A DNA stretch of 64,000 bases from contig OX344750.2 of assembly GCA_947034885.2 (NCBI GenBank), positions 1,984,001-2,048,000 of the forward strand, read 5' to 3'. Made by a program: the position numbers and the translations under genes. The notes under the pieces are model-generated. The model made no database searches and was not told the origin of the DNA. It saw only the letters and a program-made list of their open reading frames with translations. This document shows positions 38,223 to 57,595 of the stretch, piece by piece (the first letter of the stretch is position 1; every line of letters starts with the position of its first letter). This stretch comes from Thuidium tamariscinum. Its lineage: Eukaryota; Streptophyta; Bryopsida; Hypnales; Thuidiaceae.

Positions 38223-41079
38223 TCATTCTTCTTCCATAGGCTCATCCTCTTCAACATTGCGTTCATCCATTGCAAAGGCTGCCACTGATGCCTTAATGAT
38301 GCCAATTTGTAAGTTTGGAATTGACACTTTCGGTTTTCTTGTGTTTTCTTGAAAACGAGGCTTCCAAGCTGTTAGAATACAACCCGTACTTGACCATGTC
38401 GGCTTGATCACGGTGTCTTCCCGCCACACATTCCCTTGCTTCGTGTCCCATCCCTCATATGTATCCATATTAATGTGTCGATTTGAGGTAGGCGTCCAAT
38501 ATTGAATCTTGATCATATGCATATGCCCAGGATCTGGACTTGGAGCTGTAATGGCCCTAGTAAGCCAAAATGGTTTAGGGTCATCATTAGCGGGGCGTAC
38601 TGCAATAAAAGAACCTTCGTGTGTATCAGCATTAACACGAAATGAGGGACGCGGACGATCACGTCTTCGTCCAACAAACGGCACATCTTCAGCATCCTCC
38701 TCATGCAATGTGCCATCTCTTTGCATTCGATCTGTTTCGTCAGGGGCAATCCTGGAAGTCGGCCAAAATCCATCAAGTAATGCTTCACGGACTTGAAGAG
38801 GTGCATCCAGAGCCACTCGAACGCCTTTCCAATAATCTTCCAAGCCGCCATTCTTCCGCCTAAACTCTCCTGTGTAGTCATCATTTGTCATTTTCTTCCA
38901 ATATTCAACGAAACCGCTCAAACCCTTCTTTACGTCTAGAAGAGCCTTCATCGGTTCAGGAACTAGAGGTGGAGGACTACCAGTTGGCACTTTAGGAAGT
39001 CCATCTACAGTCTCAGACCACAATCTTATCCCCTTGCCACCCTCAGGCAACCACTTATCATCTGTAACCAAATGTTTATATTCCATCAAAGGCCATCCAT
39101 TAGAATCCTTGAAAAACTTGAATTGTTGGGATCTAGAATGACCCTCTAAAAAGTCTCCACCAGTGCCAAGGTATCCTTGCACAAATGCCTTAAAGTCAGG
39201 AACTTCTTCAATGAGATGAGGAATCACAGGGTGCTCTTCAATATCCATGAAAGACTTCATAAGCCTCGGAAGTGTGGGATAGTTATTTGTCTTCAATCGG
39301 GTGCTCCATCGACCAAAAAGAGCATCAATGTCTTCATGAGTGTGTCCCACAATGAGGAAATTGATGTACACTTCACGAAAAATGCCTTTGCATACTAGCA
39401 TGGAGCAAAAACCAAAAACATAACGGTTCTTGTTGTCACCTGAACAATTGTCAAGCTGCAATATTAGTACTGGAGGAAGAGGTTTAGCTGGAAGTGGTTC
39501 ATCCAAAGGTAGAAGGAGGGAGTCCAAACATGTTTCTGCTCCATTTAAAAGCGCCTTCGTCAAGGTAGATTGGTTATCTTCAATTGAAAATAACATGCGC
39601 GACGAATTCTTTGGCACTCCTTCTAAATCACGCAACAACCTTGCAATTGACCCAATGGTATGATTTGAATCTGTTGGATAAATGCCTAAACCATAGTGTG
39701 CATATCGTACATCACCATGCCCATGAGCAATCATACCTGTAACAGCTATAGGCATTTTCATGAAAGACTCCGTCACTTTGGTCTTATGGGAAAAGTGTGG
39801 TGAAGCGGTCTTCGAGTGATCCATCTTGTCATGAATGATGCACAACATGTTATCCGGCCTTCTTATAGATTCGTCCCGATTTCCATAGTAGTATTATCTA
39901 TGAGCCAATTGCCCTTGGTTATGTATTTCCTTCAGTTTTTCCCACTTAGATTTTGCCTCCTCCCCTACACAAGCGCTTTTCAATTGGTTGTATTTGTCAC
40001 ACAACCCACATCTAGCAAATGAATCTCCACGAGCCTTTGCAGCAAATTGAGGAAAAGAATCACGACGAATATTGCTCAAACCACTAGAAGAAATAGGTGG
40101 CAAATTGAAACTAGCATTGGTTTCATTGATTGTTTTCAATTGATCACTCCAACGAAACGAAGATGGAAGAACCATGGCAGTGACCTTTTCCCCAGACTCA
40201 AGTGTCCTTGTCTTGTGCGGCATCTTATCAGCATCCGACTCAATTAACTTCCGAAGTGTAGCAGTAGCTTGAAGAGTTTGAATACGAGGCTTCTTGCTTC
40301 CCAAATTCCCATGCACATCCGCTTGCTTCCCAGTTTTGGCTTTCTCTTTGTACCTATAGTACGTACATTTTGCAATCCCATGAATGATCCACCACGCAGT
40401 AGGACACACTTCTTTCTCTTTCAAGGTGATCCATTCTTTCCCACTAGCATCCTTGTGGATTTGCCTATGTACCTCCAGAAGTGTCTTGTTCCGAGCCTTA
40501 TAGTCATTCCCTCCATACAAATCAACTCGTATTGCTTGAAATTGTGCACGTGGAAAATGTTGTACACAACTCTTTTCACAACAATTGTTTGTAGAGACTG
40601 CTGTGACTGACTCCATAGTTAGAAGAAGTTCTTTCTTAGGAGGGACCTCAGAGTCAACTCTTACACGAGTTGTTTCATACGATCTAACCCCCTTTCGAAT
40701 TCTCTTGGGGGTCATAGCCGCATTGTACTTATATGTTTCATCATGGTCATACAAAGAAGCACCGTCGTGAAGGAACACTCTCCTAATGGGCCATGAACGT
40801 AGTGACCACATGTTTGCAGAGGAGAACAAATCTTCGTTCAAAGATTCCGCAATATGAATGGCAACTTGTTCATCACCAAGTGACTTCCCATTCTGGTCAA
40901 TGACCAACTCAGGGTCAATGTTTTGAATGACTCCCCTCGCAACATCCACCCCGTTTTCATTTTCGAGACGAACAGATTGCGTGACCTACTTTGCACGAGG
41001 GGTTCCCTCGCACAAACGAACATCCAGTGGAAGTACCGGGACTGGATTCACGAAGTCTTCTAGTCCATGATAATCCATT
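38223..41079 (-). pseudogene. DUF7869-like, probable RNase H-fold transposase; two in-frame stops
   Basis: One minus-strand exon starts one base before the ATG at 41078, directly after a TTGCAG acceptor. It stays open for 952 codons except for TAG at codon 31 (40986-40988) and TAA at 39894-39896. Across both breaks the protein reads on smoothly (CEGTPRAK-stop-VTQSVRLENE; QLAHR-stop-YYYGNRDE). The core has IIHDKMDHSKTASPH, LQLDNCSGDNKNRYVFGF and FLIVGHTHEDIDALFGRWS, an Asp/Asp/acidic pattern I associate with DUF7869-type proteins and suggest is a DDE-like transposase fold. Cys pairs (CCEKSCVQHF; RCGLCDKY) may bind zinc. The C terminus is acidic. The single 5' leader intron (41080-42254) holds eight copies of the 19-bp palindrome shared with the ParB-like locus. 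The function assignment is inference. The stops may be real decay or assembly errors. Confidence 0.7.
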
Positions 41080-41110
41080 CTGCAACTAACACGCCACCAA
41101 TCAAAAAGTG

Positions 41111-42065
41111 TATCATCGAGTCAATGATAACAAATAAAAATATAAATCCCGTTCATTGTAAAACCATATAATGATGTTTAAGGAATCCAGAACTGAATAC
41201 AGATATCCGTTTCCCAGTGAAGTACGGACCATTGACAGGATGATATCTATTCATACTTTCAGGGCTGAACAGAGCCAAGAACCAACAAAAATTTATATAT
41301 ATACATCTAGGACAGTTATCCTCGAATCGATGATAACCTTGACAGCGTAGGTCTTCTGTAATATGAGAGAAGGAAACTACAACTGATAGTGATCCTGATG
41401 ATGATCATGGACAAGTTCCCATTCTACAGAACAAACACGCATGTATATTCAGTTAGATATTGACATTACCCTCAAATTGAGGGTAATCGTTAAGTTCGTA
41501 CAATGTAGGAGTTAGTCAAGGTTTACGATCACTTCTTTATGAAAGAATTATCAGAGTAAATAATGGCAACAGGAATTACAACTTCAACAGTTGTCTTTGA
41601 GTCGACGATAACTCATACAAATAGAGAACAAACCCCAGCTGAACCGCAAGCCCAACTCCATGTCACATTCTTCAAACAAAATTGTCCATTACCATTGCAC
41701 ACCCCCTATATCAATAAGTTACTCCATAGAAGACATATCCTCGACTCGAGGATAACTGCTACATAAATTCAGGAAAGGAATTACAAATGTTAGATCTATC
41801 CATCCCCCAAAATTGTCCATTACCATTGTACACACCCTATATCAATAAGTTACTCCATAGAAGACATATCCTCGACTCGAGGATAACTGCTACATAAATT
41901 CAGGAAAGGCATTACAAATGTTAAATCTATCCATTCCCATCTTCACCTTCAGGATTCTATTATAAGTCCTGGATATTCTAGAACAAGACATTGAATTACT
42001 TATATTAATCTTCCATTATCATCGAGTCGACGATATCGATGACTGTTATCATCGACTCGATGATA
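41111..42065. repeat. Cluster of eight 19-bp palindromes in the leader intron of the DUF7869-like gene
   Basis: Copies lie at 41111-41129, 41317-41335, 41467-41485 (diverged: TACCCTCAAATTGAGGGTA, still palindromic), 41592-41610, 41736-41754, 41867-41885 (both TATCCTCGACTCGAGGATA), 42017-42035 and 42047-42065 (TATCATCGACTCGATGATA). Half-site consensus is TATCNTCGA, with one spacer base. The same motif clusters at 48.6-56.8 kb and was not seen elsewhere in the window. Confidence 0.92.
41681..41938. repeat. 131-bp tandem duplication, one palindrome per unit
   Basis: Unit 1 starts at 41681 and unit 2 at 41812 (ATTGTCCATTACCATTG...). They are nearly identical, and each contains one perfect TATCCTCGACTCGAGGATA. 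Palindrome number in the intron was therefore raised by segmental duplication. Confidence 0.9.
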
Positions 42066-42254
42066 ATGATATATGACATATCCCGCAATTTCCGGCGAAT
42101 AATTCGGATGCTCCCCGAGACGACAACTCCATCAACAGCTCCATCGAAGTAACAAACAATAGCAAAACACAACATCTGAATGAATACATATTCTTTGAAA
42201 ACAATGATGTGCACAGAATAATGAGTCAAAGAAGAGATTCATACATAACATTAC

Positions 42255-42480
42255 CTGCTAAGCAGAATGGTGATGTTCGAAATGATGCACAGAAATACCA
42301 ATTGACGACAATGTACTTGGTAGAACACCTCCAATAAGTCCAAATAAGATGCAGAAGCGAATGCTAGACTAAGAGGAGGAAACGATGTGCGTAAGCAATA
42401 CAAGAGCACACACTGAATTGTTTGCGGTACACAAAATGAGTGAGAAGAGAAGAGAACGGAGCTTCAAGATAGGGAAGGCG
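42255..42480 (-). other. Putative noncoding first exon of the DUF7869-like gene
   Basis: A GCAG/GTAATG donor at 42254 on the minus strand pairs with the acceptor before the ATG at 41078. This predicts a leader exon upstream, ending at 42255. Its 5' limit is a guess based on the E2F-like sites and GC-rich patch at 42478-42540. Confidence 0.35.
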
Positions 42481-42495
42481 GGAAAAATTGGCGCG
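42478..42495 (-). promoter_or_regulatory. E2F-like sites in the putative promoter of the DUF7869-like gene
   Basis: Read on the minus strand, 42485-42478 is TTTCCCGC, an exact match to the E2F consensus TTTSSCGC. The plus strand at 42487-42495 is ATTGGCGCG, one mismatch from the same consensus. E2F sites in plants drive G1/S genes. The match is by eye only. Confidence 0.4.
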
Positions 42496-42599
42496 TATAG
42501 GGCGATATTCAAATGTGACCAAATACGCGCCCTTGACCAGAAGTGTCTAGGCAAGTGCCACAGAAATTTAGGCGATGCTTCTTGACAACTTTTGTACAC

Positions 42600-44150
42600 C
42601 AAAAACTGGTATAAAGTTAACTAATACTGCAATTCATTGTTTCCAAAGCCCAAGTTTCCGGCATCACTTTCTCGGCTCACTATTTTATGACCTATCACTA
42701 TTGTCCAATGTAAAATGAATCGGTTGACTTTTGGCCTCTTCCCACTGGATTTTAGAATTTCCAAGTCAGCCATAAATACGCACTGTCCAAGCCTATTAGG
42801 GGATTACAGTAGTGCTGGCTTACTCTCACACGTGCGCTTTTTTTATAGTTCAGGCTCTGCCTTCCCGCTATAGGGTTCCGCTTCCACCGTTAAGGTTTCA
42901 GCTCCAGTTTTAGAGTTTAGGCTTCTAATTCTGGATTTCAAGCTTTACATTTCCGAGGATGGTTAAATTCCAAGGTTTGGAATACAGAAATTCACCAAAG
43001 ATGTGCCTAAACCCTAAAAATTTAAGATAAATTCTTTGCAACTAAAATAATCATTTTATTTATGGTATTCAAATTCAGTAGTCCATTCAAACTTCTATAA
43101 GTAACTTCTTTCATTGTCCATCTTAGGCATACAAATCTTACTGTTTTAAAATATTGAATTGCGATATTGATCTTAAGAATGTAGAATGTTAAATTCTTTC
43201 ACAATATTTACTTCCTCTAGTATTGAGTGGTTCAATTTAATACGCTTCAGATAATTTGAAATCCTATAGAAATCTAGATTGTACAAGTTCATATAGAAAA
43301 AATGTAGGTATGTATTTCATTCTCAAAATCCATCTTCGTATTTGCATATGGCACATCAAATGCAACTTCCTCTTTCAAGTAGTTACTAGTAAAACTATAA
43401 CTAAAAACAGAAAATCTATTTTTTTTCTATAAAGACTTCTACACACTTACCAATTCATAGAATCAGTGGTGCCCTCAAGCATCCCGTACTTTATCCTACA
43501 ACCATCATCGAATTTACTTTTTGTACTCAGTAAATGAGTAAAAATGTGTTAATATTATTACACAATATTGCACTTGATGTCTTCATAGTATTTGTAAAAA
43601 AACTATAATAACCTCGAACTCATAACTTCTTCTTTGTTATTGAATTAAAAATAAAGTAAATAATGGTCTCTTTCATTTTCATCCATGAACAGAGATACAG
43701 GAAGCGCCATCTTGAAAAAAAATTTACATCACAAAAAACTTGTAACTTTTCTTCGAAGAAAATAGATTTCGCATCCCTAGGTATGCAACTCCCATATTAT
43801 AAGGCCTTGATTATATTCATCACATTTAATGCATTTTAATCTATTATCAAAGTATATAATTTGTCTTAATGTAGGAAATTCTTCTAACCCTTTTAACAAG
43901 GAATCCAAAATTGAAATTATATAGGTAAAATAAATATTTTTGAAGGCAATAATAGCATTAAAAACCAAATTATATGAGTTTTGTTAATACATGTATCATA
44001 GACCGAGCTACTCAACTTTTGGGCTTTTTAATAAAAATTTAATTTTAATTGGAGAAAACTTTTGGTATGGACTTTTAAAAACCATGCATAGGTGTTCTAA
44101 TTCCTCATATATATTGTGAATTTTTTTTTCTATCCTCCTATGAAGATAAG
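42600..44150. other. AT-rich intergenic, nothing recognised
   Basis: No gene. Near 42840-42980 a loose series of AGGNTTC / GGCTTC-like phrases gives the look of a decayed short-unit repeat. Confidence 0.4.
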
Positions 44151-44189
44151 CTGTTTGTTTGTTTGTTTGTTTGGATGTTTGTTTGTTAC

Positions 44190-44640
44190 GTTGAGATCTC
44201 ACGGACCGTGGGTCCCCCGGGTGTGTGTTTGGTACCGTTGGAAAGCCCTCGGCGAGGAGGGGTGCACGGGCTTTGATTCATGGTGTTCCAACCTACGGCA
44301 TGAAAGTTATTGAATTTTGAAGTTTCTATATGTTACATTGAGATCTACCGGACCGTGAGTCCCCCGGGTGCATGTTTGGTATCATCGGAAAGCCCTCGGC
44401 GAGGAGGGGTGCACGGGCTTTGATTCATGGTGTTCCAACCTACGGCATGGAAGTTATTGAATTTTGAAGTTTCTATACATTAAAAAAATTTAGGTCTCTC
44501 GGACCGTGAGTCCCCCGGGTGCGTGTTTGGTACCGTCGGAAAGCCCTTGGTGAGGAGGGGTGCACAAGCTTTAATTGATGGTGTTCCAACCTACGACATG
44601 AAAGTTGTTGAATTTTGAAGTTTCTATACATTAAAAAAAT
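44190..44640. repeat. Three tandem copies of a 147-151-bp unit
   Basis: The phrase GGACCGTG-GTCCCCCGGGTG recurs at 44203, 44350 and 44501. It is followed each time by GGAAAGCCC, GGCGAGGAGGGGTGCACG (or a close variant), ATGGTGTTCCAACCTACG and GAATTTTGAAGTTTCTATA. The units are far more GC-rich than their surroundings. A (GTTT)n run (44153-44186) precedes them. Confidence 0.9.
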
Positions 44641-44671
44641 TAGAAAATTATTTCTTTTCTTTTCTTTTAGA

Positions 44672-44698
44672 CCGTGGCAACGGCACGGGCCACCCTAG
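44672..44698 (+). mobile_element. Possible Helitron 3' terminus
   Basis: CCGTGGCAACGGCACGG can form a short GC-rich hairpin (CCGTG/CACGG). It is followed six bases later by CTAG and then T, the pattern of a Helitron 3' end (hairpin, CTRR, insertion before T). The tandem array just upstream would be internal to it. No 5' TC end or Rep/helicase coding sequence was identified, so this is tentative. Confidence 0.35.
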
Positions 44699-44926
44699 TA
44701 ATGTATCTAATGGAACTTTTTCTACATATAATTTTCTTTTAATTTGGCCTTCACCTAAATTTTTGGTTATTTTAATTTCATATAATTTTAACAAAAGCCA
44801 TGCTCTAAGCCATTTTCATGTCGATGAACCCTGTATATAATACAAGAGTTGCGTACCCAGATTCACATCTACCAAACTATAAAATAGAAATGGATATACA
44901 AAATTAAAAGTGAAAACCTAAAAAAA

Positions 44927-45375
44927 CTTGTGCATGTTTTTTTTGGTCTTTCTTTCACATGAAATTGGAGACATTGCACGCTTTTTTGAATTTGTACAAA
45001 ATGGTAGGGTTGGGCCTTTTTTTTTAAGTGCACACGGAATTGGACACCAATCCCGTTGCAAATCACAAATTCCTCATGGATTCTCATAGAGTGGGCCCAT
45101 TCCAACTTGTGCATGCTTTTTTTGGTCTTTCCTTCACGTGAAATTGGAGACATTACACGCTTGTTTCAATTTGTACAAAATGGCAGGGTTGGGCCTTTTT
45201 TTGAAGTGCACACGGAATTGGACACGAATTCCGTTGCAAATCACAAATTCCTCATGGATTCTCATAGAGTGGGCCCATTCCAACTTCTGCATATTTTTTT
45301 GGTCTTTCCTTCATGTCAAATTGGAGACATTGCACGCTTGTTTCAATTTGTACAAAATGGCAGGGCAAGACTTTC
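44927..45375. repeat. 2.5 tandem copies of a 178-179-bp unit
   Basis: Units start at 44927, 45106 and 45284, with shared blocks TTTTTTTGGTCTTTC, GAAATTGGAGACATT, TTTGTACAAAATGG and CACAAATTCCTCATGG. Long frames on both strands across it have no stops because the unit is repeated. They are not accepted as genes. Confidence 0.9.
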
Positions 45376-45593
45376 TTTGCTGAATATATTAGAGTTGTAT
45401 ACTATTTTTTAAGAGATATGAGTGTACATTTGTTTAGGATTAATTTGGAAATGGAATGATCTTCGGAAATCTACATTTTAGGCACAAGATTTTTGTACCG
45501 TGCATTTGTGATTGGATGTGTTTTGTGAGCTATTCTGAAGTATAAATTTTAAGAGAGTTTTTTATGAATATGTGATCATTGTACACTTCTGAT

Positions 45594-45966
45594 CAGGGTT
45601 GTTTTGTCGAACATATTTTTGGGTTTGGGTGTCGTGTACGATGTCCAATGTCGAGTGTCACGGTGACAACTTGTTACGAAGGGCGTCCCACCTCGTCGCG
45701 AAAGTCCATTTTCAGCAGCTCAAAAAAATGAAAATCTTACTATTACTATGAACCTAAATGAAGAATGTAATATGTATTCATAAAATTGAAACACTTAATT
45801 GAAACACTTAATTGAAACCCAACTTATATATGTCAAAATTTTTAATTTCTAATGATTTATTTTAAGTCAACTTGATTTTTAGTCAATGAGACGTCACAAG
45901 GGCTCTACTAGACGTTGCGTGACGTCTGTCTGTCGCGATGTCCCAATGTCTGGCAGAACAACCCTG
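45594..45966. mobile_element. hAT-type MITE with perfect 8-bp target duplication
   Basis: The termini CAGGGTTGTTTTGTCGAACA and its inverse (TGTCTGGCAGAACAACCCTG) pair over about 20 bp, with 10 perfect at the tip. The element is flanked by identical CTTCTGAT at 45586-45593 and 45967-45974. The CAGGG start and 8-bp duplication are diagnostic of hAT elements. At 373 bp it is nonautonomous. GTCG/CGAC-rich subterminal repeats are visible inside. Confidence 0.93.
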
Positions 45967-46275
45967 CTTCTGATCTAGTAGTAAACAACGTTTAAAGTAA
46001 ATAATAGAAAGAAAAGTTACATTGAAGTTCCTCAAAAAATACATTCAAGGTGATCTATATAGAGATAATAGATATACTACAATGTTACTTGTAATGGATA
46101 ATTATACTTTTATAGCCTTTAAACCTTTAATCATGAGACAAATTGTAATCCATGATTTTCAAAATCAAAGTTAAATTTGTAAGGGAAACTTTAAGAATAT
46201 TAATTATTTATGCCCGTAAATTTGAAGAGCTACAATTTAGATTCGAAGCTCTAAAATGACAACATTCAAGTACTT

Positions 46276-46545
46276 TATGGATTAAACTAATATTTATTCA
46301 TAGGTCATAGAAGATCTTCTTTTAGACTTTGATTATTTAATAAATGTTAATTTTTCCTATTTGTAGCAATACCTACTAAGTAACTTTGATTAACATCAAA
46401 GGAAGTACCCTATGGATTAAACTAATATTTATTCATAGGTCATAGAAGATCTTCTTTTAGACTTTGATTATTTAATAAATGTTAATTTTTCCTATTTGTA
46501 GCAATACCTACTAAGTAACTTTGATTAACATAAAAGAAAGTACCC
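46276..46545. repeat. 135-bp tandem duplication
   Basis: Two nearly identical units start at 46276 and 46411 (TATGGATTAAACTAATATTT ...), ending in GATTAACAT-AAAG-AAGTACCC. Noncoding. Confidence 0.92.
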
Positions 46546-47031
46546 TAAACCCTAGAAATTTTTGTACTTGTATAGGTTAGATGCTTCAGAGGACTGTAAG
46601 ATTAGTCCATCACATTTTTACAAATTTTGATTGAAATTTTGGCAACAACATCCGCATTATAGAAGCAAATAGGAATTTCTTAGCTGTCCATACAATATTA
46701 CTTTTCAAATGCAAGAGAAAAGGCATTTCATTTCAAACGATACATTTTTACTTTAAGGTGCCGTAAAAAGAGAGATTGGGTATAAGTTAATAAGAATCGT
46801 GGTTAAAAATATCTAATTCTTTTCTTATTTGGTGGAGATAGCTGAAATGTTTAGATGAATTACACTTTTTGAAATTTACATACTTTCTTGGGTACTAGTT
46901 TCCAATGTAAAGCCAACTTCAAAATTTTGGCTATGTCATTGCAACATTTCAAAACACTTCAACATCCGCCTTTTGCCTCGAAAGAGTGTATTTCTTTTGT
47001 CCCAAATATTGTAGTTGTTCTTCAAATAATG

Positions 47032-47316
47032 CAGTTGGCGCTCTATATTGTGCTATGTATTTCCACTTTGGATTAGAAAAAATTATTTTTCTAAAGAAGA
47101 CAATAAAGTAGTCTGAGAATTTTGATTATAACAATAGACAATTTTGAAATGATGTAAAATATTAGGTGAATTAGACTATTTCAGTTGGCTCTCTGTTTTT
47201 TGCTATGTGTTTCCAGTTTGGATTAGAAAAAATGATTTGTCTAAGGAAGAGATTAAAAGTAGTTTGAGAATTTTGCTTTTACCAGTAGATAATTTTGAAA
47301 TGATGTAAAGTATAGC
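47032..47316. repeat. 150-bp tandem duplication, diverged
   Basis: Units start at 47032 and 47182 (CAGTTGGC-CTCT). Shared blocks are GCTATGT-TTTCCA-TTTGG, TTAGAAAAAAT and AATTTTGAAATGATGTAAA. They are about 85-90% similar by eye. Confidence 0.85.
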
Positions 47317-47390
47317 CTATTTTGGATGAAAAAGACACTATACATCCATGCTTTGGTGCATGAAGCAGGTTCGGCAGGGTAGTAGGTTCG

Positions 47391-47969
47391 GTGATCCACA
47401 ACCCCGGACCTCTGCTTCGGCTTGGTGTTTGGCGGCTCGGGGGAGGTCTGCTGGCAGCTCGGGGGAGGTTTGGTGCATCTTCTTCCTCCGACGAATGCAC
47501 GCGCACAGTGTGTGCATTTTTTTTTGAACTTGCTGCAGGTTTAGGGTGCTTTCGTGTCTTTGCGTGTTCCGCGAGTTTTGTTGTGGTTCTTCTCGTGAGG
47601 TGGGGCGCCCGGGAGTATTGGTTTGAAGCGCCACTATTGAGATCGTCTCTGTCTCGCGAGGTGGGCAGTTTAAACTGCTATTTAGGCCCGAGCTCTCATC
47701 CAGGGAGCTCACTTGTCTTCATTCATGGAGCTTCTAGTTTGCGCTCGCAGTGCGTCTTGGAGCTTGGGGAGGGCGCTTCGCACCCGCACGTAGGGTGTTG
47801 GTGTTTTGTTGGAGGGGTCGAATTGAGATTGAGGAATTGCAATTGCAGCTTGGAGTGCATTGCGGAGCTCCTAGGGTTTTGGAGCGGCTTCTGTTTCTGT
47901 GACGCGAGCGGGTGACTTTGGCTTCGAGCTGGTTTCTTTCTTGCGCCCGAGAAAGGGTTTTCTGTACAG
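47391..47969 (+). promoter_or_regulatory. GC-rich promoter and probable noncoding first exon of the ParB-like gene
   Basis: GC jumps at about 47.35 kb. A TGTACAG/GTGATT donor at 47969 pairs well with the CTTGCAG acceptor directly before the ATG at 49753, giving a 1.78-kb leader intron. The frame of 174 codons on the plus strand (47391-47915) has no motif and is explained by GC. TAGGGTTTAGGGTTTA (telo-box-like, 48241-48256) lies just inside the intron. Confidence 0.4.
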
Positions 47970-48583
47970 GTGATTTCTTCGTGCTTTGTGTTTCGAATTT
48001 CATTGTTGTTTCACATTCTGTATTGCTTGACTGAGTTGACTCGGCAGCCTTGCAGCCATTGTTGAAGTCGAAATGTTGTGTGTCCGTTGCGATGGGATTC
48101 GTTCCAATTCTGGAATTCCTGCCCTGCCTCATTGCGTGGGAATTATTGCAACATTTGGTTGCAACATGTGTTGCTGGTCAAGGGTAGCAGTCTAGTCCTT
48201 GCTTTTAGAGGTTATTGCGTAATTCTGGAGGAATTCTGTGTAGGGTTTAGGGTTTAGCGGAACTTCAAGAAATTGAATCCACTGACTAATCCTTTGAGCT
48301 TTTCAGGTTTTCTGCGGTGTAGTCGACACTTGTGCGTGCACCTGCTTTTGAATTTGAGAAGGATTTTGCAGCAATTTTCACTCTAAGTAACGTATTCCAA
48401 AACGTTTCACTGACTCTATATATTAGGGATTTAGGATTTAGGTCTGATTTTTTGTCTTTGTTTCTACTACAAATTAGGGTTTAGGCACGGGTTTCCCAGA
48501 CTATTCTATTCTATGAAGGAACAAAACTGCATAATTTTCATGCGATTAGGGTTCACAATACGGAATCCCAGTTATTATCAATC

Positions 48584-48897
48584 AAATGATAATATTAGAG
48601 GGAGCTAAATTATAAAAATAGGTGATAGAGGAAGTTATCCTCGACCCGACGATACAAGCAGAGCTAAATACCATGGAAATGCATCATACAAAGTAGTTAT
48701 CGTCGAGTCAAGGATACTATCATAACGCAGTGATCAGTAAAATGATAATATTAGAGGGAGCTAAATTATATAAATAGGTGATAGAGGAAGTTATCCTCGA
48801 CCCGACGATACAAGCAGAGCTAAAATACCACGGAAATGCATCATACAAAGTAGTTATCGTCGGGTCGAGGATACTATCCAAACGCAGTGATCAGTAA
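48584..48897. repeat. 156-bp tandem duplication, two palindromes per unit
   Basis: Units start at 48584 and 48740 (AAATGATAATATTAGAGGG). Each holds TATCCTCGACCCGACGATA and, about 62 bp later, a second palindrome. In unit 2 that second copy is TATCGTCGGGTCGAGGATA, the exact reverse complement of the first. In unit 1 it has changed to TATCGTCGAGTCAAGGATA. Confidence 0.92.
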
Positions 48898-49704
48898 ACC
48901 TGCGGACTAAAACAATTAAGGAATTCATTGTCATGAAATAGTTGTAGGCCCCAACTTACTGAATTTACACTTATCATAGACTCGAGGATACAATCTCTCA
49001 TCCATTCTACATGAAGAGGATAGATTCTCAAGGCCTCACAGTGAAAGCAGATAGATTAGGATAGCTTAATCTTATCCTCGACACGACGATACAAAGACAA
49101 ATCTTTTAACAGTAGATCTCTAGAAAATTTGTAGATCTCCGTTAAAAAGAAAACCACTCTTGAGAAAGCTGGTTTAACCTTTTTAAATTGTAAAAAGAGA
49201 GAAGGTGAATGCTACAGACGTGAAAACCATGATATAGTAATTGTATAATGACCTCGGTATTCTACTGGCTATCCTCGATACGATGATAAAAGTGTACATT
49301 TAGCAATCCTAGTTCAATACTCTGAACGAAAATATCATATCATAGCCGACCAAATAAAAATGACATACGTCGCTTTAGGAATGAGTCAAGAAGAATTAAA
49401 AATCAATAGGAATTTTAGTTACTCTCTAAGATTAATAGAACCTCAACACTATTCTATAGATATACAGAAAGGTTAATGTTATCCGCGACACAACGATAAC
49501 TCTTCCGTATTTGTAAACAAATTACATTCATTAGGTGGACACATTTAAACACTGAAAAATCTTGCAGTCATCGAGATACAAGGACTAACTTAACTCCGAG
49601 ACCAATTCCATGGGTGAACCGGTCTATCTTCCCTTCACTTGTAATAGTTTATGAGCGTTGATAGAATCATTCATTAATGCAATCTTATCCTCGATACGAC
49701 GATG
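48636..49704. repeat. Cluster of nine 19-bp palindromes in the leader intron of the ParB-like gene
   Basis: Positions are 48636, 48698, 48792, 48855, 48972, 49073, 49270, 49480 and 49686 (each 19 bp). Most are variants such as TATCCTCGACACGACGATA and TATCCTCGATACGATGATA. The half-site TATCNTCGA is the best-kept part. Spacing is irregular (62 to 210 bp), so this is not a CRISPR-type array. Confidence 0.9.
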
Positions 49705-51174
49705 GCTTTATTGTGAAATAATTTTTTCGATCTGGATGATCCAGACTTGCAGATGGAGATAGTCGACGACTACGACTACTCCCTTACAAGGGACCACCTC
49801 CAGCCATTCAAGAATCCTTTAAAGGACGAGCCCTTCATTTCAGAAATGGAAGAGACATACGGAACCTTATGGGAGTTCAAGAGTTACATTATGACATGGT
49901 GTTTTGGTGTGAACCGATTTAAGAAGTATGTGTACCTGCGTTATCGTGTTCAAGGAACAAATGTCTATATGCCCTGGAATACAAAAGAAAAGGTCACTCT
50001 CATTGAAGAACATCACAAGGACTATGTCGTGATCGTGCTTCAAGAAGTAGACGATGTTGGGAATGTCAAGGAGCACAGTCACTCCATCGTACTGAACGTG
50101 AATTCCTATCACGGAAAGTTTGATATTGATAATCTGATAACATTTCTAGAAGGCTCGGCGATGGAGTCTTTAAACGCGCAGTTCTTAAAAGCTGGCTATG
50201 TTCCTTGGAAGAACAGCACTGGGAAGTTGAATACCACTCGACTGCGCCTTATTTTCCAGACATTGGACCGCTACGCCATGGAACATGTCGAGAAGGAACC
50301 AGCTATGGGACGACCCTCTGAGCAGAGGCAGCGTCCAAGAAACAGTGATCCAAGCAAAACGTCTTCGGCTGGTGCAGGCTCAGGGAGCAAAGTATCTAAA
50401 CCTGGTCAGTCAAGATCTGAGCCGAAGAAAAGAGACCCTCCGCAACAAGGAGAATCCAGTCGAAAGAGAAAGAAAAGTCTTTCGGCCGCACCAGTCGGCG
50501 GTGGAAGTTCCATTTTGGCTCTTACTACTGTGTCAGCTGCTACAGCAAAATATGAACCTAAGGTTCTTGACTTCAAGAAGTTTGACGAGATTCAGAGGAA
50601 ATTCTGGGCTGAGCACAGGAAGTGTTTCCTGTTTAATGAGGAGACATTCAAAATTGACATTAAACAATGCGATGAGGCAAATCCAGAGTACGTTATTCGT
50701 ACTCTTCAGAGGGACATCGTGGAGGCCGTCAAGAAAGAGCTCATTCAACTCATTGACGTCAAGCAACGGCAAAAAGTTTGCCTTACCCCCATTGGTTTGG
50801 ATAAAAAAACTCTTGCCTTCTAAACCAAAGAAGTGGGATGAAATAAAGAATGGCCACTTCATGATTATTAACGGTCAGCACAGCATCAAAGCTTCTCAGG
50901 AGCTTCAACTAAGCGGTTGTGGGGAAGCTCAAAAGGTTGAATTGAAAACGTGGGATGCTTACATCGTCTGGTCTCTGGACGACAACCAGCTGAGGAACAT
51001 CTCAAAGTTCTACAACTACACCAATCACTTGAACCATGCTCAACCAACGTGGGGCAACCAGATTATTAGCTGCAGGAGGATTTGGGTTGCATACAAGCGT
51101 CCAAGCGACACGCTATTTAAGGACGAGATCCGAAAGAACGGAGCAGAGTGTGACCTTAAACAGTATAAGGTGAG

Positions 51175-51306
51175 TATCGTCGAGTCGATGATAACTTCAG
51201 TCAAGGCTAAACGTACATGCTTTGAGTTTCATTGGTCGTGAGTCGTAATTCACTTTACATTCCTACATGTGTTCAACAGTTGTTCCCTATCGTCGAGTCG
51301 ACGATA
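51175..51306. repeat. Two 19-bp palindromes in intron 51170-51360
   Basis: TATCGTCGAGTCGATGATA at 51175-51193, starting five bases after the splice donor, and TATCGTCGAGTCGACGATA at 51288-51306. The intron is only 191 bp. Confidence 0.95.
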
Positions 51307-52713
51307 TAGGGACATTGTTTAGCACTGCTTTACTAATGGTTCCGTTAATTTGTATTGCAGAATTTCACAGATGCTGTCATAGAGCGGTTCCAGAATATAA
51401 ACCTAGAGCGAGATGGGGCATCAATATCTGGAACTTCGGATCTCAAAAATGAGATCCAGATTATTACCTTGCCCGACGACTTATGGGCATTTTGGGAGAG
51501 CTTTCTGACGAAGCACGCTGATGGTGATCTCATTGACCCTGTGATGATGGAACCATACAAAGCGAACAAGCTCTTCAAAGCGAAGAGCATGTCACTCAAG
51601 AAGGAGTTCTTCAAGCACTGCGGGCACTTCACAGACACGGACTTTGGTGTTAGTGCGCAGCACCTCCTCGGGTTGACACCAGGACGCCTTGCGAAGTATC
51701 CCAAAGTTTCCGTCTCTTCGACTAGGGTTTTAATTCCTGACAACATGACCCACAAGGAGTGGGTGGAGCGAAGGAAGCGGAAGAAGGTTGTGCTGCAGGA
51801 CCTGATGTCCATTAACCCGGACTTGAAGTTCGTTACAGCTGGTGGTGAGGTGTTGAACGAGACTTGGAAGTCATGGAAGGCTCGTCATCAGTTTACCTCT
51901 GCTTCATGGGATTTTCTGTTAACGCATCCAAGTGCCGATTACTTCAAAAGACGTTTGAGGAACGACGCATGGCTAAAGTGTGCGAAGGACCTGGAGAAAG
52001 ATTTTCCTCAGGTGCTACACATGTTTGCGCGGTTCATGAAGTTGAAGTACCAGCTTCCTACACCGTCTGGAGGTGTGCAAATCAGAGGCATCGACTACAA
52101 CGCGATGGCACTGGTGACTAGCTCGAGTTACCGGTATCACAGCCGAGAAGTTAACTTCGCCTTGGTCGATTTGAGGGTGGCTCCAAGAGAAAAGCCCACA
52201 GCTACAAGTAGCGCCATCGACCGTTTTCTGAACTTCTTACTGGTGAATCTGTCACCAAAGATGACCGAGCCAAACGTCTGGCTCTTCATTTTGAAGGGGT
52301 CAGATGACATCGACGCCGCAAAGGCCTTTGCCCTTGTTAATCTGGAAGACTACAAGTTCTGCCTGTCCACGTATCATCCAACAAGAGCTGAACTCTTGGA
52401 TAATGTGACTAGTCGATCGACGGCTCCCAACGTGCCTCTCTTCTTCCTCTTCAAGAAGAATAACGAGTTCGCAACGTCTAGTCGGGCGCTCTTACAATCC
52501 CAATATTTCACTCTTCAATCCAATACGTACTACTGGGAGTGGGGAAAGAACACAGAATCCAAGTGGAGGATTAATCCAAGTGAACTCCGTATGGAGTTTT
52601 ATTTGGACATGCTTCAAGCTTTTGGCAAGCCGGAGGAGAACGTCCTCGGAATTTACGCGGGGGCAAAGTTTATGCTCGCTACGAAGGTATGTATTCCGGA
52701 CCCTCTTGGATGT

Positions 52714-52814
52714 TATCCTCGACTCGAGGATATCTTGTCTGAGTATTTCAATCTCTCAGAGTTAGGAAGTTGGTGATTGTTTTAGGGTGGTCAGTTATCC
52801 TCGACTCGAGGATA
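52714..52814. repeat. Two identical 19-bp palindromes in intron 52687-52870
   Basis: TATCCTCGACTCGAGGATA occurs at 52714-52732 and 52796-52814 inside a 184-bp intron. The same sequence occurs twice in the DUF7869-like leader intron, 11 kb away. Confidence 0.95.
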
Positions 52815-53992
52815 ACCATCGCAGCGACCTTAACTTGTCCTGAATAACTGAATAACATATTGTTTTACAGATGTTCGGGGCGTTCTACTACGGATTCGTC
52901 GATAGGGGTGAGGTGAAATCGTACAGGACAATATCTTATCTAGCGGATAAGATGGACAAGAACGACTTCATGATGGCGAATTCGCCATACTCTTTGGACT
53001 ACGTGAAACCTCAACCACGTGGTCCAATTGTACTTCACTCGAATTCGCCGGCGTCGCCACCCGTGAGCTTCGTTTCTCTGGTTTCGCAGACTCCAGCTTC
53101 AACTCAGGTTGGAGATAATGTCCGCCCGCCCGCAACATCACAGTCGGGTTTGGAGGGCATTGATGAATATGGAACCAACACATTCCAAATTTATCTTTGG
53201 ATGTCTACCCCAGGTGGTCAGGACAAGGCTGCAAAACCCGCACAGCCGGAACCGATTGACCTGCAAGACATGCAGATTGTGGAGGTACAACCTTCTCCAC
53301 AAGCAGCCTCAGACTATATTCCTCCAGAGGAATTCGACGTCGAGGTTGATGAGGGTATGGAGACGGACTCCGAGTTCGAGCGACAACAGGCGGAACGGAG
53401 AACGAAGTGTCGAGAGGAAGACGACTCCCTGGGATTCGGAGGCGAGGACGACTCGTTCCTGAATTCCCCTGTAAAGGAAGGGGACAAAGGATCCGATGAT
53501 GAGGATGTGGTCATGCAAGAGAGGAGGCTTCCCATCGGTGAGGTGGATGCAGAAGGGAGGCCTCTCTTCTATGATTTTGGGGATGATGACGACCCCATGG
53601 ACCATCCCCACGAATCGGATCACGACGACGACGACCACGATGCTCCTCCGAAGCAGAAGGAACTGAAACCCTTAGTCCTCCCCGATGGCAAAACGATCAA
53701 AGTCGAGAAGGACTACTGGGCAGAGTAGGAGGAGGTCAGAAGAAAGCGGATCGAGAGGACAGAGGCGTCGAAAGCGAAGGACAGGCTATTGGAGGAAACG
53801 AACGCCAAACTCATCGCTGTCACGCAGGAGTCCGCGCAGAAGATGTCTGCGATGGAGCTCAAGTTGCAAAGGCTCTCTGAACTGGTAGAGAGTCAGTTTG
53901 GTTCCACGGCTACCCAGTCGCAGCTTCCGTCGCCCGCCCCACCTGCCGTCCCAGTTCCTCCTCCAGTGCAGCATATGGTGTCGGAGACTCCG

Positions 53993-54179
53993 TATCCTCG
54001 AGTCAAGGATACTTCCCGAATCGTGTCTTTGGTAGACACGGATGTTGTGGAGTGCACACCGGCCTCCCAACTCAGACAGAGTGCGACATCACCTGAGGTG
54101 GCTGCATTTGCGGTTGCCGTACCTCAACCACGAGGGCCCGATGAAGACCAGGCTCGGGATTATCGTCGAGTCGACGATA
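53993..54179. repeat. Two 19-bp palindromes inside coding exon 3 of the ParB-like gene
   Basis: TATCCTCGAGTCAAGGATA at 53993-54011 is read as YPRVKD. TATCGTCGAGTCGACGATA at 54161-54179 is read as YRRVDD. Both fall in the low-complexity C-terminal part, in the same reading phase. Confidence 0.93.
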
Positions 54180-54430
54180 TCGCTGAAGACGCAACGAAGA
54201 AGCCATCCAGTGCAATATTGACACCTGCACCTGACACGTCTGAACAGGTGCATGAGCCTTTACATGTGGAAGACGAGGAGATGTTGGACTATGGGGAGAA
54301 CGACCTCGACGACAATGTCCACGAGGAAGCGGAAGTCCAAGTCCCTGCTCTAGATATTGAAGAGCAAGGATCTCAGAATCCGACTGAATCCGCGCAGGTA
54401 CATTCCATTGGTCCTTACGCCTTCGATTGA

Positions 54431-54931
54431 AAATGAAAAATATGGAATAAGGTGTTTGATCCTGTAGGAAGGAGATGTTCTTCGGAGAATTGTAATTCTT
54501 ATAATGATTTGTCATGTCTCACAAAAGGGAGTCGCCACTCCTTCACATCCTGGCGCTGACAGAGAACCCGTTTGTGGCGGACGAAAATGTAGTATAATGT
54601 AGAGTAGTTCTAGAGTGTACAGCCTTGACGGCTTTAAAATTTTGAAATGTATTTTATACACCGTGTAAATAAAAATCTCGGAATTTACAATCTACACAAG
54701 TGTGTCTAATTGAATTCCCTTGTCAATGTTTTTGGTTCAGCTCAAGGTTAGTGTAAGCTTGCATCACCCGCTACCCATGAAGCCAATTCCTAAAGAAAGG
54801 GCGCAGTCCAGTAGCGAGTTGCAATGCGTCACTCCGCATTTTGGCTTTACCAATCCTGCAATTATTCAGGTAACTCCAATTCTTTATTGTTTTGGTTTGA
54901 TCAGGTAGGGTCGGAGGAGGGAGGGGAGGTC
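54431..54931. other. Spacer between the ParB-like and FCP1-like genes
   Basis: It contains the 3' end of the upstream gene (AATAAA-like GTAAATAAAAATC near 54665) and a possible upstream exon of the next gene (54749-54869, before GTAACT). I could not join that exon because the following gap is too short for an intron. Confidence 0.35.
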
Positions 54932-55743
54932 ATGCGGACGATTGAGCGTCCAATCATGCCTCCGCCGAGGAGGAAGTGGCTGAACATTGTCTTCGACCTC
55001 AACGGTGTGCTCTGTCATTCCTCGTCGGCAAAATTCGGGAAAGACTTCAAGCACTACAAGGTCGAAGACAATGTTCTCAGCCATCTGTACCCGACCATCA
55101 TCGGATCCAAGGCTGTATTCGCTAGGCAGGACGTCGGCGAATTTCTGAAACAGGTGTCTGAAATCGCGAATAAGGTCGTGGTCTGGTCCTCAATGTACAA
55201 GTATAACGCGGAGGCCATCGCGGGACACTTGTTCTCGAGGTGTAGACCTCCCTACAAAGTCCTAGGACAGGAAAACTGTACCAAGATAGAGTACAGTCCC
55301 GGGAAGTTCTTCCACGTGGTCCGAAAGAATTGAACATGAAAGTGCTGAAGCATGGTCTGTTTGACACTATCGGAAATGCGGGCTCCGCGTTTTCGACGGA
55401 GGACACCCTGCTCATTGACGACTCTCCCGAAAAGAGTGTTTGCAATGAGACCGGGAACTCCATCTTCTTGGAGACCTGGAGCTACCTTCATCGGAGGGAT
55501 GATGTCCTCATGGGACAGCTGCTCCCGTAGCTCCGACGGCTGCATGTGGGGTGCAACCCCCACGGGGGGTTGCTGCGATACGTAGACGAGAATAGGATAG
55601 GCAATAACCCCCTCTCCCGCGACCATTTTCATCTCACTGAGATCCTTGAGGTCATGAGGGAGTCGGCGGATTGCATGAACACTCGTTTCGAAGTGCCCAT
55701 GGCAGGTCTCACCATCGAGAGACGCCGTCGCTGTAGAAAATAG
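54932..55743 (+). pseudogene. FCP1/NIF-type (HAD) phosphatase-like, frameshifted and with an in-frame stop
   Basis: From ATG 54932 the protein starts MRTIERPIMPPPRRKWLNI and then has the HAD nucleophile motif FDLNGVLC (Asp-x-Asn in place of Asp-x-Asp), VVVWSSMYKYNAEAI and LLIDDSPEKSVCNETGN. This is the order of FCP1-homology (CTD-phosphatase-like) domains. DLN/DVNG variants are common in plant members. The frame shifts by one base near 55320-55331 (phase change at FFHVV / ELNMKVLK). A TAG at 55528-55530 interrupts GQLLP-stop-LRRLHVGCNP. Reading then continues to the stop at 55743 with VDENRIGNNPLSRDH. It probably belongs to the same element as its neighbours. Loss of the second Asp plus the breaks make activity doubtful. 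Confidence 0.7.
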
Positions 55744-55975
55744 ATTTTTTTTATTGTAGAACTAGGCATCGAGGGAGTCCAGGCAAAATGATAACTAATT
55801 TTTTTATGTACGTAACTTTTTTTGTAAAATAAATATAATGTTTTTCCATGGCATTCTACGTTCATCTTGAAAATCTTGTGTTTCATCGATCTTGATGGAT
55901 AGCAAGTTCCACATGTATCCGTGTACTCATAGCAAGGATCATCTTCGGATTTGCATCGTTACTGTTTTATTGCAG

Positions 55976-56881
55976 TTTGGAGCTTTGCGTTCTATTCCAA
56001 CGCCAAGAAAAGAGAAGCTCACCAGGAGCCTCCTCTCGGGATCAGAGATTTTGCCCTCCACCGAATCTGATTTTGGCGGTGGGAGCTGCGAATCGATTCC
56101 AATATCCAAGCCCTACATGTTGCGTTCAACCGCTGATGCGGCATCGGCCGCCATTGACTTTTCCAAGGGGAACATTGAAGATGGCATCGTCGACAGCCCG
56201 CCGAGTCGCACTACGGGCAGGACTCCCATCTGCTCGCCGTCGCCGTTGAGACGGACATCCTCGAGCCGAGGAAGGTCCTGGTCGCCGACTCCGCAAAAGG
56301 ATGGAGCGACCAGTCGAAAGCTCGAACTCCTTGTCGAAGATGCTCTGGGGCATCCCCGCCTCGAGGATAATGTCCCGCCTTTGAATCTGTTGTCTGGTAA
56401 CCGTACCATGGCTGTGGGTTCCCAACTTGAACCCACAGATGCTTTTGATGACGTTCGCTTACCTCGACTCCGGGACAATCCAACCCGTTCCTCCAATTCG
56501 ACAGGGGGAAGGCGCCTGCCTTCCACGGACAGTCTTTTTCGTCAAAGATTTTTTAGAGAACATCGACGCTCTCTGGACACCGTGTCTACCGGAACTACTC
56601 TTCCCTTATCAAACAATGAGAAGGGCCCTCTGCCTAAACCGCCCCCACGGAATTCTAAATCGATTTCCACTTCTGCCGTTCCTCCAAGTACGCGATCATC
56701 GAAACGGAAAGCCAACGAATCTCATAGTCTGAGTGAGACTGGAACTCCGTACAATGGAAGTGGGTCACATTATTCTTCTCGACGCGAGGATATCTTAAGA
56801 GGTCTTGCAAAGCTCAAAGCCGAAAAGGCAGGGAAGGCTGTATATGTTGCTAAACTCTGCGACACTGATAAAAGAGATTAA
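55976..56881 (+). CDS. Ser/Pro/Arg-rich unrecognised exon with diverged palindromes
   Basis: An open exon of 302 codons (stop at 56879-56881) starts after a TTTTATTGCAG acceptor at 55975. The protein is disordered and rich in Ser, Pro, Arg and Thr (SPSPLRRTSSSRGRSWSPTP), ending with a short helical basic stretch (LAKLKAEKAGKAVYVAKL). I recognise no domain. Three diverged copies of the 19-bp palindrome lie in frame at 56256-56274, 56351-56369 and 56774-56792. Their right half (TCGAGGATA or GCGAGGATA) is the better kept. This ties the exon to the element upstream. Its first exon is unknown. It could be a 3' exon of the FCP1-like gene or a separate gene. Confidence 0.5.
   Translation, partial: FGALRSIPTPRKEKLTRSLLSGSEILPSTESDFGGGSCESIPISKPYMLRSTADAASAAIDFSKGNIEDGIVDSPPSRTTGRTPICSPSPLRRTSSSRGRSWSPTPQKDGATSRKLELLVEDALGHPRLEDNVPPLNLLSGNRTMAVGSQLEPTDAFDDVRLPRLRDNPTRSSNSTGGRRLPSTDSLFRQRFFREHRRSLDTVSTGTTLPLSNNEKGPLPKPPPRNSKSISTSAVPPSTRSSKRKANESHSLSETGTPYNGSGSHYSSRREDILRGLAKLKAEKAGKAVYVAKLCDTDKRD
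56256..56792. repeat. Three diverged 19-bp palindromes in coding sequence
   Basis: CATCCTCGAGCCGAGGAAG (56256), CATCCCCGCCTCGAGGATA (56351) and TCTTCTCGACGCGAGGATA (56774). Each keeps 9-1-9 geometry with two to four mismatches to the consensus. Confidence 0.6.
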
Positions 56882-57363
56882 AGTTGGTAACGCTAGTTAC
56901 TATAAATAGAATGTTACATAACCGTACATTCAATTCAAAAGGTCCACGCTTTGCATACAGCGCACTCTGTAAATGGATATAGAAAAATAGGTTAAAAAGC
57001 TGAAGAATGTTAGCCAGGGCTATACATTGAGTGTGTAAATTTTTTTGGTCGACATTAAATCAATGGTAGAATTTGACCATTCGCTCACTTCAGTGGAAAT
57101 TGTTGTGCAAACTTGCATGCTTTGAAATTGCACATCATCGTGATTCATCATTTCAATGACCATCTTTTATACGAATGCCTCCTATGAAATGTAAAAGGGT
57201 ATTCTTTGATTGCCTTCATTTATCGTTGGATTCAACAACTTTTACTTCAATGATTACAACGTACTCATTTCTGACAGTCTCAAAATCACCATTTTGTCTC
57301 AATTTAATGAATAAGGCCTTCTATGGACAACACAACTCTTAGTATAGTCCACTTCTCCATATC
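56882..57363. other. 3' flank of the accessory region
   Basis: No palindrome, gene or terminal inverted repeat matching the 38-kb side was seen, so the right border of the element is not defined. Confidence 0.35.
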
Positions 57364-57595
57364 TAGTGCTCCCTTGGACTCATCCGAACCACTGGTCCAC
57401 CCCAGTGCTTCCTTGAATTATCCAAGCCATCGGTTTACTTCAGTGCTCCTTTGAACTCATCCAAGCCACCGATCCACTCAGTGCTCCCTTGAATCATTCA
57501 AGCCACGAATTCACCCTAGTGCTCCTTTAGACTCATCCAAGCTACCAATCCATCCTAGTGCTCCTTTGGATTATCTAAGCCACCAATTCACTCCA
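57364..57595. repeat. 38-40-bp minisatellite, six copies
   Basis: AGTGCTCC(C/T)TTG recurs at 57364, 57404, 57442, 57480, 57518 and 57557, each followed by a variant of ACTCATCCAAGCCACC and ATCCACCC. Strong C-rich strand bias. Noncoding. Confidence 0.9.

Follow-up and report, generated by a model that had tools for sequence, protein, structure and literature searches.

The question raised by the DNA analyzed here, a window of 64,000 nucleotides from contig OX344750.2 of the moss Thuidium tamariscinum (positions 1,984,001 to 2,048,000; coordinates below are those of the window unless another contig is named), is what purpose is served by a 19-bp palindrome, TATCNTCGANTCGANGATA, whose two 9-bp half-sites flank a single spacer base and which recurs in one part of it. 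We found that its carrier is a giant DNA transposon of about 20-23 kb, present in many copies, with genes for a DUF7869 protein, a ParB-like protein and a NIF/FCP1-like phosphatase (Table 1). We favor the view, with a probability of roughly 0.5, that the palindromes are sites through which the ParB-like protein would recognize its own element, for counter-silencing or self-activation.

With up to 3 mismatches allowed, the window contains 24 sites, all within 41111-56792, while 100 dinucleotide shuffles of the window gave a mean of 0.30 and a maximum of 3. Matches with 4 mismatches add five more places (33992, 41054, 41467, 52671 and 56256); those at 41467 and 56256 are near-palindromic and lie where a preliminary description of this DNA had put sites. 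With these two the total is 26, in agreement with the approximate count of that description and with its layout of eight copies between 41.1 and 42.1 kb, nine between 48.6 and 49.7 kb, a further four in two introns, two in exon 3 of the ParB-like gene and three diverged ones at 56.26-56.79 kb. Its further statement that the motif marks a single region of the window was borne out: at the 3-mismatch threshold there is no site beyond the transposon, nor in the left 3.4 kb of the element itself. The variant TATCCTCGACTCGAGGATA indeed occurs as four exact copies, at 41736, 41867, 52714 and 52796. The spacing of sites is irregular, as had been claimed, and the flanks differ only in part, since a 131-bp tandem duplication (96% matches) occupies 41677-41938 and a second duplication, recognized by eye, contains the sites at 48636-48873, so that some sites share their surroundings. 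Given that both duplications fall within palindrome clusters, the array grew partly by duplication. Apart from these two duplications there are no head-to-tail units and no regular spacing, and the clusters are dispersed across the genome; a satellite or a CRISPR (clustered regularly interspaced short palindromic repeat) array was accordingly rejected, as it had been before. The palindromes contain TCGA; most of those in the window occupy promoters or introns of genes that the element itself carries.

The terminal inverted repeats (TIRs) and 4-bp target-site duplications (TSDs) identify the 16-kb palindrome region as belonging to one copy of a DNA transposon. The 18-base TIR pattern AAGGCCTTATTCATTAAA has 362+346 matches in the genome at up to 2 mismatches, against 5+6 for a control, and the same TIR pair encloses the two closest copies, on contigs C7 (about 22.9 kb) and C10 (about 20.1 kb). 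Perfect TSDs were seen in 3/3 copies checked (CTAT, ATAA and ATAT among the window, C7 and C10 copies). Among 78 scored DUF7869 matches, 61 are accompanied by both partner genes in fixed order and strand, 5 by the ParB-like partner only, 4 by the phosphatase only and 8 by neither. A ParB-like partner lies on the opposite strand, 8.4-27 kb away, in 66/78 cases (random placement: mean 1.26, maximum 4). All copy numbers are lower bounds, scores having been obtained for 78 of 802 DUF7869, 113 of 404 ParB-like and 150 of 388 phosphatase candidates. The mobile element proposed in the preliminary description is thereby established, and the gene types it named are those of the element, with the ParB and methyltransferase identities weakly supported (see below). 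The DUF7869 gene, from which the ParB-like gene diverges, encodes a presumed transposase whose sole family assignment is PF25273, a domain of unknown function. The window copy looks dead, because its DUF7869 gene has an in-frame stop and its ParB-like gene a frameshift and a stop; other genomic copies of both genes are free of such stops in the matched part, with DUF7869 open frames of about 957-974 residues.

The motif is not peculiar to this locus and occurs throughout the genome, of which 363 Mb in 19 contigs were scanned, nearly all of it in eleven contigs of 17.5-54 Mb (C1 to C11). It contains 49 light-harvesting matches, and the one tested matched chlorophyll a/b-binding chains, those of plants apparently ranking higher than those of green algae, in line with a green plant and probably a land plant as host. 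We counted 1,225 exact palindromes against 0 for a reversed-pattern control, and 4,027 against 115 at up to 2 mismatches. If the spacer is lengthened from 1 to 2 bp, with one mismatch allowed, the count falls to the background (3 matches versus 3 in the control). The listed exact sites are far from uniformly distributed; they form clusters, which span 10-14 kb in complete elements. The 30 best-scoring of the 113 ParB-like loci all carry palindromes, 2-12 each and 293 in total (1 in shuffled sequence). Of the 50 exact sites in the initial 23 Mb of C1, 35 have a scored element gene no more than 15 kb away, compared to a random mean of 0.6.

Palindromes are kept in subfamilies whose promoter sequences are otherwise largely dissimilar. 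We compared the 1.45 kb upstream of the ParB-like gene in nine subfamilies with the sites masked; 31 of the 36 pairs score at most 20, for shuffle means of 11-13 and maxima of 13-17, and only 5 reach 23 or more. There is some residual promoter similarity between subfamilies, but little. Each of the nine promoters nonetheless keeps 4-9 palindromes, and in 7/9 subfamilies one of them stands 64-77 bp before the start codon of the ParB-like gene. Across 187 distinct contexts the flanks carry less than 0.1 bit per position, except for the outer neighbor (0.3 bit, mostly T/A), and palindrome positions 5 and 10 carry less than 0.2 bit; as the contexts were chosen at no more than 1 mismatch, the high information at the specified positions partly reflects that choice. 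The palindromes have thus very probably been selected as cis-elements of the transposon.

Position 5 of the half-site separates the sites into types. Among the 1,225 exact sites, a base other than T (A, C or G) occupies this position in both halves in 876, T in both halves in 219, and only 130 are mixed, where 436 would be expected if the halves were independent. In a set of 62 loci with 322 sites, T/T combinations number 26 against 2.4 expected, and those of T with another base 4 against about 51. In all six mixed sites listed on C1, T is paired with C, pointing to a further, C/T-tolerant type. Among A/C/G-type sites of the 62 loci, A/A, C/C and G/G are rarer than expected and unmatched halves are commoner; perfect palindromes seem to be avoided in this type, with the proviso that these are related copies. 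From the 9-1-9 geometry, and from the half-sites tending to choose T or not-T together, we infer a two-fold symmetric reader, which supports the dimeric protein suggested in the preliminary description.

These site types co-vary with the ParB-like protein. On C1-C3 we related exact T/T sites, within a reach of 15 kb, to the identity of each ParB-like protein to that of the window. Such sites accompany 4/4 elements whose protein is 54-58% identical, 0/16 at identities of 61% or above and 0/1 at 51%. These contigs hold 49 T/T sites, of which 27 adjoin the 54-58% group. A branch with 100/100 support splits 2 T-type proteins from 30 others in the ParB-like tree (32 proteins), although just these two T-type proteins are included and the 51% clade is left out, which limits any count of switches. 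In paired loci, the DUF7869 proteins of different subfamilies are 88-92% identical, with a synonymous divergence (dS) of about 0.3-0.76 and a ratio of nonsynonymous to synonymous change (omega) of 0.07-0.15, whereas the ParB-like proteins are 51-81% identical and their synonymous sites are saturated in 31/40 pairs. The transposase, being near-constant across subfamilies, therefore suits the site variants less well than the fast-evolving ParB-like protein, which is probably what reads the palindromes. As one gene is slow and the other saturated in the same elements, the two seem to have separate histories. Beside this, the gap within single elements (dS of about 0.6 for the transposase versus saturation for the ParB-like gene) suggests an exchange of modules between subfamilies.

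What such a reader might do can be approached through silencing. In exon 1 of the ParB-like gene (loci L005-L034, L065 and L070), 30 of 34 in-frame stops are TAG, 16 derived from CAG and 8 from TGG; these changes fit the loss of methylated CHG cytosines and hence indicate silencing by the host. For the VANDAL/VANC system, C- and T-type motifs have been described that sit in upstream regions as well as introns and have multiplied as tandem repeats (PMC5735166; PMC10398659); it is also reported, for VANC with its named domain DUF1985, that low methylation is restored without transcription (PMC5735166). The likeness to this system lies in a short motif repeated in the noncoding parts of an element, with subtypes by subfamily (the segregation here not being absolute), in tandem growth, in a fast-evolving partner protein and, as proposed here, in an element countering its silencing. 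The VANDALs differ in being Mutator-like and in using VANC proteins and a motif of 9 bases; the moss element has a 19-bp palindrome, an unrelated protein and putative binding. Among ParB relatives, VirB of Shigella is an anti-silencer (PMC10770331), and such relatives are frequently associated with mobile elements (PMC12704722). With VirB and parS/ParB, the element would share a ParB-type protein, specific sites upstream of genes and, by our proposal, counter-silencing; those are bacterial systems built on a cytidine triphosphate (CTP) clamp, whereas here the homology is weak and the arginine box is not evident (INGQHS/N). It is the resemblance to VANDAL/VANC, together with the record of ParB relatives as anti-silencers linked to mobile elements, that leads us to self-recognition, and by this analogy the odds that anti-silencing or self-activation is the purpose of the palindromes are about even.

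On this reading, the ParB-like protein would bind each palindrome as a dimer of two-fold symmetry, with a subunit on either half-site and the fixed 1-bp spacer between them. The many sites in promoters and introns would allow 'self' DNA to be recognized by density and not by any single site. Bound protein would prevent the host from closing these regions by silencing, or would return them to an open state, and the opened regions would permit expression of the transposase and the accessory genes. As subfamilies diverge, protein and site would change jointly, giving rise to A/C/G-type, T-type and apparently C/T-type subfamilies, and the outcome would work like VANC/VANDAL anti-silencing, with unrelated proteins. 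A more detailed version, in which a ParB-derived anti-silencer loads at parS-like symmetric sites, spreads and excludes silencing chromatin, with co-evolved subfamilies mutually blind, is a speculation to which we would give perhaps one chance in a few. If it were true, such an anti-silencer would be convergent with VANC in plants and with VirB in bacteria.

Besides the small number of T-type proteins in the tree, several observations weigh against self-recognition by a ParB-like reader. On C1-C3, 22 of the 49 T/T sites are near no scored match of the 54-58% group, and 15 of the 50 exact sites in the initial 23 Mb of C1 are without a scored element gene within 15 kb. T and not-T labels also cluster on the DUF7869 tree, with 3 changes (1 is not excluded; shuffled mean 10). 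The split is itself incomplete: some T-bearing elements mix T with C, and in T-bearing clusters at C1:9.73 Mb and 27.95 Mb two C/C sites, separated by 180 bp, are located close to the phosphatase end. Of the masked promoter pairs, 17/36 do not exceed the best of 20 shuffles and 19/36 do, mostly slightly. Within young clades, specified positions change in 4.1% of cases versus 5.6% for flanks (p=0.001), a modest difference, and free positions, at 4.6%, behave as the specified ones do (p=0.53); weak conservation within clades would be expected if most copies are dead. CpG decay affects 6.1% in sites and 9.0% in the background, which is marginal (p=0.052), and on this value we make no claim that sites are protected from it.

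The identity of the protein adds to these points. It has no match in Pfam, where the VANC domain DUF1985 would be found, nor in NCBIfam, in which weak matches below the cut-off concern unrelated families only. The ParB profile of PHROG, phrog_723, gives a weak match (best E=0.0096; 3/8 members at E<=5), and a profile search of PDB chains returned matches at chance level only. The fold model of exon 1 is poor, with a predicted local distance difference test (pLDDT) score of 36.6; that of its N-terminal 185 residues is poor as well (pLDDT 62.3), with no PDB or BFVD match at E<=0.001. No relative was seen in the viral contigs scanned. The nucleotide box of ParB proteins bears an arginine (GERR-like); in 8 alignment rows the corresponding box reads INGQHS/N or INDQHS, and no arginine-bearing version was seen in them. 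The INGQH box and the phage-profile match together point weakly to a ParB-like protein.

Of the other explanations, the one that survives best is that the palindromes are ordinary activator sites, at which the element's own protein, or its phosphatase acting on RNA polymerase II, switches promoters on without any counter-silencing. The presence of sites at promoters and introns, the site preserved shortly before the ParB-like start codon and the FCP1/NIF-like phosphatase that travels with the element all agree with this. Two sites per intron, and those in exon 3, exceed what a promoter needs, and their spread is like that of VANC targets. The activator explanation overlaps with counter-silencing and is hard to tell apart from it; we consider it unlikely, if less so than those that follow.

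We regard as improbable the proposal that the DUF7869 transposase binds the palindromes for excision, much as subterminal repeats are used in En/Spm or Ac. The palindromes are symmetric, dense and clustered inside the element, and the clustering of site types on the DUF7869 tree would suit it too. In En/Spm, TnpA recognizes motif arrays that are subterminal; the moss element is similar in being a plant DNA transposon with many short sites and putative binding by an element protein, and differs in that its palindromes are internal. The nearest left site of the window copy is 3.46 kb inside, and toward the right end there are only the diverged coding ones, while the ends have a repeat of their own, TCATTAAATTGAGAC; a subterminal role was rejected on these grounds. 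Furthermore, the site variant switches between subfamilies while DUF7869 hardly changes, and 2 of 5 DUF7869-family matches in the initial 23 Mb of C1 are without an exact site within 15 kb. These two (C1:14626365 and C1:20556909), which in contrast to the majority of the element's DUF7869 matches align to positions 6-192 or 6-190 of the profile, are perhaps a second DUF7869 lineage without palindromes.

About equally improbable is a host transcription factor exploited by the element. Recruitment of host factors is common in transposons, and the exact sites on C1 that have no scored element gene nearby would be natural under this explanation. It is opposed by the larger share of the exact sites in the same part of C1, which do adjoin element genes far beyond random placement, and by the site variants, which track element subfamilies within one host, unexpected for a single factor.

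Still less likely is chemical marking of the palindromes by an active N6A/N4C methyltransferase of the element. The segment PEENVLGIYAGAKFM of the ParB-like protein resembles methyltransferase motif I, and this resemblance, together with an algal relative, is the weak support on which a methyltransferase reading rests. No methyltransferase profile in Pfam or NCBIfam matches the protein, and the catalytic motif [DNS]PP[YFWH] is found in 0/17 exon-2 rows (16 of them partial, only the window copy being read through), which also tells against the preferred reading; with the motif missing from all 17 rows, enzymatic marking is unlikely. For the brown-algal relative a ParB-methyltransferase is predicted, with its own DNA as a possible target of modification (PMC12477816). 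That the palindromes are neutral remnants, merely copied along with the element, is hardly credible: the partial growth of the array by tandem duplication and the near-neutral decay of young copies, in which specified and free positions change alike, would allow it, but sites persist between subfamilies whose promoters are otherwise at or little above shuffled similarity, and their fixed spacing is held genome-wide.

Sola elements have 4-bp TSDs, a feature that those of the window element fit, and if DUF7869 were a Sola1-type transposase the element would be of a known kind. The closest parallel is Sola1-1_Ec32 of Ectocarpus, a 21.5-kb Sola1 element with a gene combining ParB and methyltransferase opposite the transposase; its authors propose that proteins of this kind bind the transposon that encodes them and modify it, and cite green and red algal cases (PMC12477816). 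The likeness extends to giant size (21.5 kb versus about 19.7-23 kb here), to an extra ParB-like gene encoded on the other strand from the transposase and to the suggested self-binding. The moss element differs in its plant host, in the absence of the methyltransferase motif and in having a NIF phosphatase as third gene; a candidate binding site is proposed here, and none is described in the part of PMC12477816 at hand. A search of the open-access literature returned no paper naming DUF7869 and none joining ParB, DNA transposon, transposase and moss. As far as that literature shows, the plant element is new, and so are the symmetric candidate site, its conservation and the way it co-varies with the protein. 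The candidate site is dense and variable, in a plant, and its subfamilies differ at one defined position per half-site; these natural subfamilies make recognition of transposon self versus non-self directly testable. If the proposal is right, plants would have, next to VANC, another independent instance of anti-silencing that is sequence-specific.

Table 1. Features of the transposon copy in the window
Feature	Position	Strand	Remarks
Whole transposon copy	37649..57320		19,672 bp; TIRs, TSD; C7 and C10 copies enclosed by the same TIR pairs
Left TSD, CTAT	37645..37648
Right TSD, CTAT	57321..57324
Left TIR, AAGGCCTTATTCATTAAA...GACAAA	37649..37676	+
Right TIR	57293..57320	-
Subterminal repeat TCATTAAATTGAGAC, two copies	37724..37756	+	distinct from the palindrome
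Subterminal repeat TCATTAAATTGAGAC, right-end copy	57296-57310	-
DUF7869 gene, presumed transposase	38223..40985	-	Pfam PF25273, E=7.3e-46; in-frame stop 39894-39896
Palindrome cluster A	41111..42065		DUF7869 5' region; 7 sites at <=3 mismatches and one with 4 (41467)
Palindrome cluster B	48636..49704		upstream of ParB-like gene; 9 sites
ParB-like gene, exon 1	49753..51169	+	frameshift near 50.8 kb in the window copy
ParB-like gene, intron 1	51170..51360	+	predicted from splice signals and homology; two exact palindromes, 51175-51193 and 51288-51306
ParB-like gene, exon 2	51361..52686	+	suspected degenerate methyltransferase region; without [DNS]PP[YFWH]
ParB-like gene, intron 2	52687..52870	+	predicted from splice signals and frame; two exact palindromes, 52714-52732 and 52796-52814
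ParB-like gene, exon 3	52871..54430	+	in-frame TAG 53726-53728; coding palindromes 53993-54011 and 54161-54179
NIF/FCP1-like phosphatase gene region	54815..56881	+	domain in 54815-55330; Pfam PF03031, E=8e-07
Phosphatase-gene palindromes, three, diverged	56256, 56351, 56774		56256 has 4 mismatches

Some further observations concern the element and its copies. Between the divergent genes, in the middle of the window copy, there are three tandem repeat arrays at 44184-46547, with periods of about 147, 178 and 135, and a 38/77-bp tandem repeat array at 57365-57595 begins about 45 bp beyond the right end. At C2:19296811-19348187 two T-type elements are inverted relative to each other; about 20 kb separates their DUF7869 genes, which do not differ in the compared part. 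This would reflect either a recent inverted duplication or an effect of assembly. C11, the shortest of the eleven large contigs at 17.5 Mb, has 3.2 scored ParB-like copies per Mb, against 0.09-0.23 per Mb on C1-C10; it is a strong sink for the transposon, and perhaps a sex chromosome.

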